44,939 nt of DNA from Desulfuromonas sp. Lineage in GTDB: Bacteria > Desulfobacterota > Desulfuromonadia > Desulfuromonadales > Geopsychrobacteraceae. The stretch covers positions 1 through 44,939 of the forward strand of contig PKUD01000078.1 in the NCBI GenBank assembly GCA_002869695.1. Direction: 5' to 3'. Below the pieces are notes generated by a model that saw only the letters and a list, made by a program, of their open reading frames with translations, did no database searches and had not been told where the DNA came from. Shown here piece by piece: positions 39,493 through 40,137 of the stretch (its first letter is position 1; the number at the start of each line of letters is the position of its first letter). Made by a program: the position numbers and the translations under genes.

Positions 39493-40137
39493 GTGGATAA
39501 ATCCAGGATCGATCATTCAGCAGCAATGCTTGCGGTTGACAGGCTCAGCCATCGGCTTGATCACGAAGAGAACAAGCTGCGGCTGGAGCTGATGAACCTT
39601 ATGATCGACCATGGGCAACCTCTCCAGGAAACCGACCTTTGCCGATTTCCGGAGCTGGCCAGCTTTGACCTTGAACGGAGCTATCCGGCATTGATCGACA
39701 AGCAGATGCTGGTCTCCGACGCCGGGAAGATACTCTTTGTCTACCCGGTTTCAGCTCTACCGACCCGGCATCGGGTGCGCCTGGCCGATGGCCGGGGCTT
39801 GCATGCCATGTGCGCCATTGATGCCATGGGAGCCGCTTATACCTTCCGCCAGGATGTGTCGATCAGGTCAAGCTGCAGCGAGTGCGCTGAACCGATTGAA
39901 CTGGCGATCCGGGATGGAGACCTAGCCGCTCTCCAACCGGCAGACGGCCGCATACTGCATGTCGATCTGAACAGGGTTTCAGACTGGTCTGAGAACTGTT
40001 GAAACGTGATGAATTTCTTCTGTACGAAGAAACATCTCGTCGAATACCAGCAGAGAATGAAGTTGCAGGATGAAGATATCTTCTGTCTCACCCTCGGACA
40101 AGGGTTGCAGGTCGCGAAGATGCTTTTTGCTCTCTGA
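39493..40137 (+). CDS. MerB-like (organomercurial lyase family) protein, probable selenoprotein: TGA at 40000-40002 read as Sec
   Basis: The protein is 169 residues up to TGA 40000-40002, or 214 if the TGA is decoded. Residues 75-169 match alkylmercury lyase: VYPVSALPTRHRV, then GLHAMCAIDAMG. Here Cys107 and Asp110 correspond by spacing to catalytic Cys96 and Asp99 of MerB. Cys169 corresponds to Cys159, and the TGA falls where MerB has Cys160. After the TGA the same frame gives NVMNFFCTKKHLVEYQQ and then LTLGQGLQVAKMLFAL, which resembles the MerB C-terminus and would be missing otherwise. A SECIS-like hairpin lies at 40008-40036. Residues 1-75 look like the winged-helix lead. The start is GTG. 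A nonsense mutation of TGC or TGT is the main alternative. The substrate could be an organomercurial or another organometal compound. Confidence 0.75.
40000..40002 (+). other. In-frame TGA, candidate selenocysteine codon
   Basis: The TGA directly follows the codon of the second catalytic cysteine, giving a possible Cys-Sec pair. The frame continues to a second TGA at 40135-40137. Confidence 0.6.
40008..40036 (+). promoter_or_regulatory. SECIS-like hairpin inside the MerB-like gene
   Basis: The upper stem TTTCTTC/GAAGAAA (40014-40020 and 40026-40032) is perfect. The apical loop TGTAC has G as its second base. A lower stem GATG/CATC (40008-40011 and 40033-40036) pairs across an AA bulge. The loop begins 18 bases after the TGA, in the range known for bacterial SECIS elements, which lie just 3' of the codon within the coding region. 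Confidence 0.6.

Follow-up and report, generated by a model that had tools for sequence, protein, structure and literature searches.

Catalysis by the organomercurial lyase MerB is outlined in PMC4525700: the mercury sits on Cys96 and Cys159, Asp99 lends assistance, and after the release of methane Hg(II) is taken away by thiols; passages of PMC8261052 describe Cys96, Asp99, and Cys159 as strictly conserved in the family. A MerB-like selenoprotein has also been described. NCBIfam model NF040728 is named “MerB-like organometallic lyase SaoL”; Table 1 of a 2026 inventory of prokaryotic selenoproteins lists SaoL with the motif CU and one selenocysteine (Sec, U), crediting Haft and Gwadz 2023 (PMC13188914); and a 2022 review (PMC9312934) includes, under an identical representative accession, an “alkylmercury lyase MerB-like protein.” These entries correct an earlier sequence-only reading of the DNA studied here, which knew of no described MerB-type selenoprotein. 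For the bacterial SECIS element (bSECIS), limits set out in PMC13188914 are a loop of 3 to 9 nt with G in its first two positions, an upper stem of 4 to 16 bp, a distance of 16 to 37 nt from the UGA, and a minimum free energy (MFE) of −7.5 or lower.

The window analyzed here is the whole 44,939-nucleotide contig PKUD01000078.1 from a Desulfuromonas sp. draft genome (assembly GCA_002869695.1; 3.29 Mb, 96.8% complete, 219 contigs). On its forward strand, positions 39493 through 40137 hold a gene with a GTG start, herein saoL, whose matches to NF040728 and Pfam MerB (PF03243) mark its product as a MerB-like selenoprotein of 214 residues with Sec at position 170. The frame comprises 169 codons, a TGA at 40000 through 40002, a further 44 codons (40003 through 40134, forward strand), and a final TGA at 40135 through 40137. 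Truncated at the first TGA, the 169-residue product scores 63.8 bits against PF03243 (cut-off 27) in an alignment that ends inside the profile; with read-through the score is 92.0 bits, a gain of 28 bits, and the alignment reaches profile position 125 of 126. To the sequence-only reading these 44 codons looked like the C-terminus of the family, and they do form its conserved C-terminal part. The product scores 169 to 170 bits against NF040728, exceeding the cut-off of 140, and carries the CU motif as C169-U170; it lies below the cut-offs of the NCBIfam MerB models (52.5 versus 193 bits for NF009710 and 47.8 versus 200 bits for NF033555). The window gene is a further member of SaoL, a family already described. 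SaoL is scarce: matches over cut-off occur in just 3 of the 136 genomes searched from the order and in 3 of the 395 in the phylum sample, the window genome being counted in both. A plasmid search with the SaoL protein returned 49 records, all below 60% identity and, among the matches listed, at 27 to 34%; there was no plasmid DNA match to the SECIS region, and a scan of viral contigs for SaoL relatives gave none that was confirmed.

To look for relatives of saoL, we searched a named genome collection with four aligned SaoL proteins; of 53 pattern matches, 14 were confirmed. The 14 loci come from Tissierella (three), Clostridium (two), a Clostridiaceae MAG, Paraclostridium, a Dorea MAG, Lachnospiraceae MAGs (three), and Thermodesulfobacteriota MAGs (three); L049, L050, and L056 apparently duplicate the records L020, L019, and L023. 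In all 14 relatives the codon equivalent to the window TGA is also TGA (15 of 15 counting the window), kept across Thermodesulfobacteriota and Bacillota, and every one of the 15 genes continues in frame past it for 44 to 47 codons. Between the window gene and L049, pN is 0.29 and pS 0.77 past the TGA, and 0.30 and 0.75, respectively, ahead of it, with pS near saturation; six further SaoL pairs have pN well under pS on both sides of the TGA, with pS saturated in several. Judged by these substitution patterns, the codons after the TGA appear to be constrained as protein like the rest of saoL. In a tree built from 57 proteins, the 15 SaoL sequences group together as a single supported clade (98/98).

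Downstream of the window UGA, at a distance of 18 nt, a SECIS-like hairpin (40014 through 40032, forward strand) has a 7-bp upper stem, 40014 through 40020 pairing with 40026 through 40032, and the loop UGUAC (40021 through 40025). With an MFE of −12.5 kcal/mol it lies within the bSECIS limits. The sequence-only reading had called this a strong hairpin with a G-containing loop at the expected distance; loop and distance stand, and the strength does not, for 32 of 200 dinucleotide shuffles (z = −1.04) and 164 of 1,000 synonymous recodings fold as well. Against synonymous recodings the 15 SaoL genes have a mean z of −1.43, with p below 0.05 in 5 of 15. A hairpin that stays within every bSECIS limit is present in 11 of the 15 genes and was not obtained for L054, L056, L059, and L062. 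Codon choice within the structure is skewed: the 5′ arm has two Phe codons, which count 29 TTC and 1 TTT, as against 20 TTC and 70 TTT for the upstream Phe codons of the same genes (Fisher p = 1.2 × 10−13, not to be taken as a true probability given the relatedness of the rows). Pair counts are modest: 80.0% of cells are paired, versus 58 to 71% for slid versions, and 89 of 500 shuffles reach this value. Part of the reason is that the hairpin of three Lachnospiraceae rows is shifted by a few bases. An Rfam search over 39300 through 40300 gave five subthreshold matches, all within 39300 through 39627 and none at the UGA, and we took them as chance. The window hairpin by itself is no better than shuffled sequence; the case for Sec170 rests on comparison.

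The window genome also holds the Sec genes that the earlier reading had proposed to look for. Matches to selA (594 bits), selB (368 bits), and selD (355 bits) adjoin one another on contig C196, and a tRNA-Sec (76.6 bits) lies on C182, all of them over cut-off. The selD gene (G000:C196:631-1554, L063) was reported with one in-frame TGA, and for this reason SelD of the window genome is probably itself a selenoprotein.

An AlphaFold2 model of SaoL (pLDDT 89.7, from 15 sequences) matches 11 PDB chains at E ≤ 0.001, all of them MerB or MerB2. In alignment with MerB, Cys107 (codon 39811 through 39813, forward strand, as are those that follow) falls on catalytic Cys96, Asp110 (39820 through 39822) on catalytic Asp99, and Sec170, the UGA itself, on catalytic Cys159, while in the solved MerB chains the position of Cys169 (39997 through 39999), the Cys of the CU pair, is occupied by Phe158 of MerB or a Thr of MerB2. 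No variation is seen among the 15 SaoL sequences at C107, D110, C169, or position 170. The sequence-only reading had placed the TGA right after the second catalytic-type cysteine; the TGA and the preceding Cys are both there, and the catalytic role given to that Cys needs amending. Because Sec170 aligns with Cys159 and Cys169 with Phe158 or Thr, Cys169 is predicted to be at a noncanonical position and the TGA itself to encode the second catalytic residue. The suggestion of a Cys-Sec pair in the active site of a MerB-like protein gains support, at the level of sequence, from the TGA common to all 15 genes.

Upstream, between TRAP transporter genes and saoL, lies an intrinsic-terminator-like hairpin with a T tail (39331 through 39356, forward strand; consensus match), one of two such hairpins found in the region versus 1.1 expected in shuffles. 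It is followed by a sigma-70-like promoter site, TTGGCA-18-GATAAT (39423 through 39452, forward strand), for which the evidence is weak (two found in the region, 0.5 expected). Next after saoL, on the same strand and 49 bases downstream, is a gene for an 831-residue fusion of 4Fe-4S dicluster, Cys-rich (CCG), and VTT membrane domains (40187 through 42682), and 27 bases further on is one for a 290-residue YdjY-domain protein (42710 through 43582, forward strand; NF040466, 80 bits, cut-off 50), the third gene of the presumed unit. The fusion protein partly matches NF045663 (“diclust_near_Sec”), below cut-off. L049 keeps the three-gene order, with 64% identity in the fusion (840 aligned columns) and 75% in the YdjY protein; the pair after saoL is thus conserved in two Desulfuromonadales genomes (window, 40187 through 43582; L049, 8603 through 12159). 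With tblastn the two downstream genes had no match in the other 13 SaoL loci, including L050 (L050 and L053 start at contig ends). The same order in two genomes would point to a joint function of saoL, the Fe-S/VTT fusion, and the YdjY protein.

Thirteen window ORFs from the 30.7- to 44.5-kb interval were scanned; among the matches listed (up to 25 families for each of three of the proteins), there is no Sao family but SaoL and no mer family except for the weak MerB matches of saoL; hgcA is absent from the window genome. Ten proteins of L055 (Clostridium ihumii) and L056 (Syntrophobacteraceae) were scanned. Around saoL in L055, saoE, saoC, saoX, saoP, saoA, and saoD are over cut-off and a saoB fragment is below it; near saoL in L056, saoA is over cut-off and saoP scores 289.6 bits (cut-off 295). 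The neighbors of the window saoL differ from this usual SAO transport set, and a divergent SaoL without adjoining SAO genes suggests an enzyme able to function alongside different partners.

Were the TGA an ordinary stop, SaoL would be a protein of 169 residues and the frame that follows would be untranslated. That the window hairpin alone is no better than chance would fit, as would the NF040728 match, which reaches the end of the model at residue 169, right ahead of the TGA. Yet the 44 to 47 in-frame codons are conserved in all 15 genes, which span two phyla, and in the seven pairs compared their pN/pS is like that ahead of the TGA; the Pfam MerB match extends through them, and truncation would cost the protein its Cys159 position together with the subsequent helices and strand. 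We regard an ordinary stop as highly improbable. A pseudogene, or a sequencing error hiding a true TGC or TGT, is more improbable still. The window sequence does come from a single draft assembly of 219 contigs, but the same codon is TGA in 14 other records, from Thermodesulfobacteriota as well as Bacillota, which makes the resequencing-type error named by the earlier reading very unlikely. When homologs were compared at this codon, as that reading had proposed, none of the 14 ended there and none had Cys, even though Cys was written into one of the two search patterns (CCN[VI]MNF). The TGA at 40000 through 40002 very probably encodes Sec in a SaoL protein.

Harder to set aside is a reading in which Sec is inserted and the protein, no longer able to cleave carbon-metal bonds, serves as a metal-binding or redox carrier. 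SaoL is distant from characterized MerB (17 to 25% identity) and misses the NCBIfam MerB cut-offs, and the genes that follow encode the iron-sulfur/membrane fusion and the YdjY protein, with no mercuric reductase. Both metal-binding positions and the Asp are, however, kept in 15 of 15 SaoL proteins, and a mere carrier would not need them. We consider the carrier unlikely, though well short of negligible, and by analogy with MerB it is probable that the SaoL protein cleaves a carbon-metal bond.

We favor, as the likely description of saoL with its lyase chemistry included, a MerB-fold organometal lyase with Sec in place of Cys159, whose UGA is decoded via SelA, SelB, SelC, and SelD together with a SECIS. 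In such an enzyme, ribosomes would read the UGA at 40000 as Sec by means of these four factors and the hairpin 18 nt downstream. The Cys107 thiolate and the Sec170 selenolate would then bind the metal of an organometallic compound as the two cysteines do in MerB, and Asp110 would help to deliver a proton to the carbon, upon which the carbon-metal bond would break. The metal would stay on the Cys/Sec pair until handed on. Cys169 probably acts as an additional ligand for passing the metal out of the site, or else as a resolving thiol that keeps Sec reduced, and the iron-sulfur/VTT protein may reduce or accept the product.

A search with the SaoL profile in a sample of 395 genomes drawn from Thermodesulfobacteriota returned weak matches with in-frame TGA, among them two separate MerB-like families for which we coined the names D1 and D2. 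D1 follows the pattern LYAAU-A-x-D ... FU-x-x-SVFF and D2 the pattern KWFGQU-x-x-E ... AU-STMNLF. In both profiles the first U falls on MerB Cys96 and the second on Cys159, and the equivalent of Asp99 is kept as Asp in D1 and is Glu in D2. There are 14 strong D1 places (E ≤ 4e-64) in 14 genomes, and both TGA were confirmed by letter in 14 of 14 (L067 through L080, with flanks L124 through L133 for ten; the divergent L080 is outside the SECIS counts and the tree). D2 has 26 places with two TGA (E ≤ 4e-81) in 22 genomes, and both TGA are present in the 22 of 22 read by letter (L094 through L115, with flanks L134 through L143 for ten). The D1 and D2 loci read by letter come to 36 in total. The D2 counts by letter exclude G274:C177, G218:C100, G218:C133, and G212:C123, all reported with two TGA; partial or broken places (L116, L117, L118, and fragments in G284 and others) are also excluded. 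Extra stops occur in three D1 places, one TAG in G248 and a third TGA in each of G276 and G513, all of them outside the stretch that runs from 60 codons ahead of the first Sec site to 40 codons past the second. The sole match to either profile in the window genome is saoL itself.

A bSECIS-compliant hairpin follows the first and the second UGA in 13 of 13 D1 genes each and in 22 of 22 D2 genes each (counts without a shuffle control); after the second UGA of three of the 22 D2 loci (L106 through L108), the best qualifying structure is not the shared GGUC hairpin. Over 35 genes (32 distinct), 99.1% of cells in the second-UGA hairpin are paired versus 50 to 66% when it is slid. None of 500 shuffles, which ignore relatedness, reaches the observed cells paired, double-change cells, or covariation score. 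Changes on both sides occur in 3 of 7 pairs, a number reached by 8 of 500 shuffles, and the pair-type count, reached by 486 of 500, is uninformative. In the D2 loop the Arg codon is CGG and the Ser codon TCG in 22 of 22 genes; elsewhere in the stretches counted, these codons make up 41 of 127 and 20 of 152, respectively.

The Pfam MerB cut-off is passed by all eight proteins scanned (four D1, three D2, and the single-Sec L024), and the NCBIfam 20.0 cut-offs by none of these eight. A model of D2 (pLDDT 85.9, from 10 sequences) matches 11 PDB chains at E ≤ 0.001, again all MerB or MerB2. SaoL, D1, and D2 are three separate supported clades in the tree of 57 proteins (bootstrap not settled; the points where D1 and D2 join bring long branches together), in which the Cys-type L036, L039, and L041 are sister to D2. 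These three D2 relatives without TGA read KWYGEC or KWFGEC. Several TGA-less relatives have open frames of about 300 codons, and those reported for G204 and G227 belong to genomes without a selA match. All 33 genomes with D-type matches have selA, which is weak support because 355 of the 395 phylum genomes have it over cut-off. Among 20 neighbor proteins, taken from 16 of the 20 flanked D1 and D2 loci, no shared partner was seen; a 149-residue ORF lies upstream in 3 of 10 D1 loci, and the one scanned is MarR-like. Two further loci have a TGA at the Cys159 position only: L024 (1369 through 1983, forward strand; AYTUPLINFF) and L025 (minus strand; HSLURKMVFL), the latter grouping with the Cys forms L021 and L022. 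Inspected by eye, the surroundings of L024 and L025 showed nothing informative. In the surroundings of L021 and L022, which are from the window's order, MerR-like and MerP-like frames were seen by eye, as in a mer-type gene group.

In the open papers covered, among which neither Haft and Gwadz 2023 nor Haft and Tolstoy 2025 figures, no double-Sec MerB was found. Table 1 of PMC13188914 has no entry for D1 or D2, and the main texts of PMC12013277, PMC5029168, and PMC2398784 make no mention of MerB. D1 and D2 are thus apparently families not found before, rather than new for certain. From sequence comparison it seems quite likely that selenium at the MerB active site is recurrent in Thermodesulfobacteriota and that D1 (Sec/Asp/Sec) and D2 (Sec/Glu/Sec) are undescribed bis-selenolate organometal lyases of anaerobes, which standard gene calling would fragment and merB surveys based on Cys96 and Cys159 would miss, with the window SaoL as a single-Sec member of this wider group. 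If bis-selenolate MerB-like enzymes exist, anaerobes would have a route for breaking carbon-metal bonds that present annotation misses, because the genes look truncated and Cys96, Asp99, and Cys159 are regarded as strictly conserved. A possible use is perhaps the demethylation of methylmercury by sulfate reducers and their relatives. If true, D1 and D2 would also provide a natural test of two selenolates versus two thiolates in metal binding and release.

Compared with known systems, the window gene is closest to SaoL of the SAO system (NF040728), with which it shares a score over cut-off, the CU motif, Sec machinery in the genome, and membership of one clade; it differs in that it is not beside SAO genes and is followed instead by the Fer4/CCG/VTT fusion and the YdjY gene. 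With MerB (PF03243; PDB 3f0o and 1s6l) and MerB2 (PDB 5c17), it has in common the fold, the equivalents of Cys96 and Asp99, and the second catalytic position. It departs from them in the Sec at Cys159, the Cys that precedes it, and scores below the NCBIfam MerB cut-offs. MerB in the strict sense has Cys96, Asp99, and Cys159, whereas the window protein has Cys, Asp, and Sec, and unlike MerB loci the 13 window ORFs scanned include no mer genes. D1 and D2 resemble SaoL in belonging to the Pfam MerB family, in the predicted Sec at the Cys159 position, and in the same kind of hairpin, and they differ from it in having Sec also at the Cys96 position and in forming separate clades.
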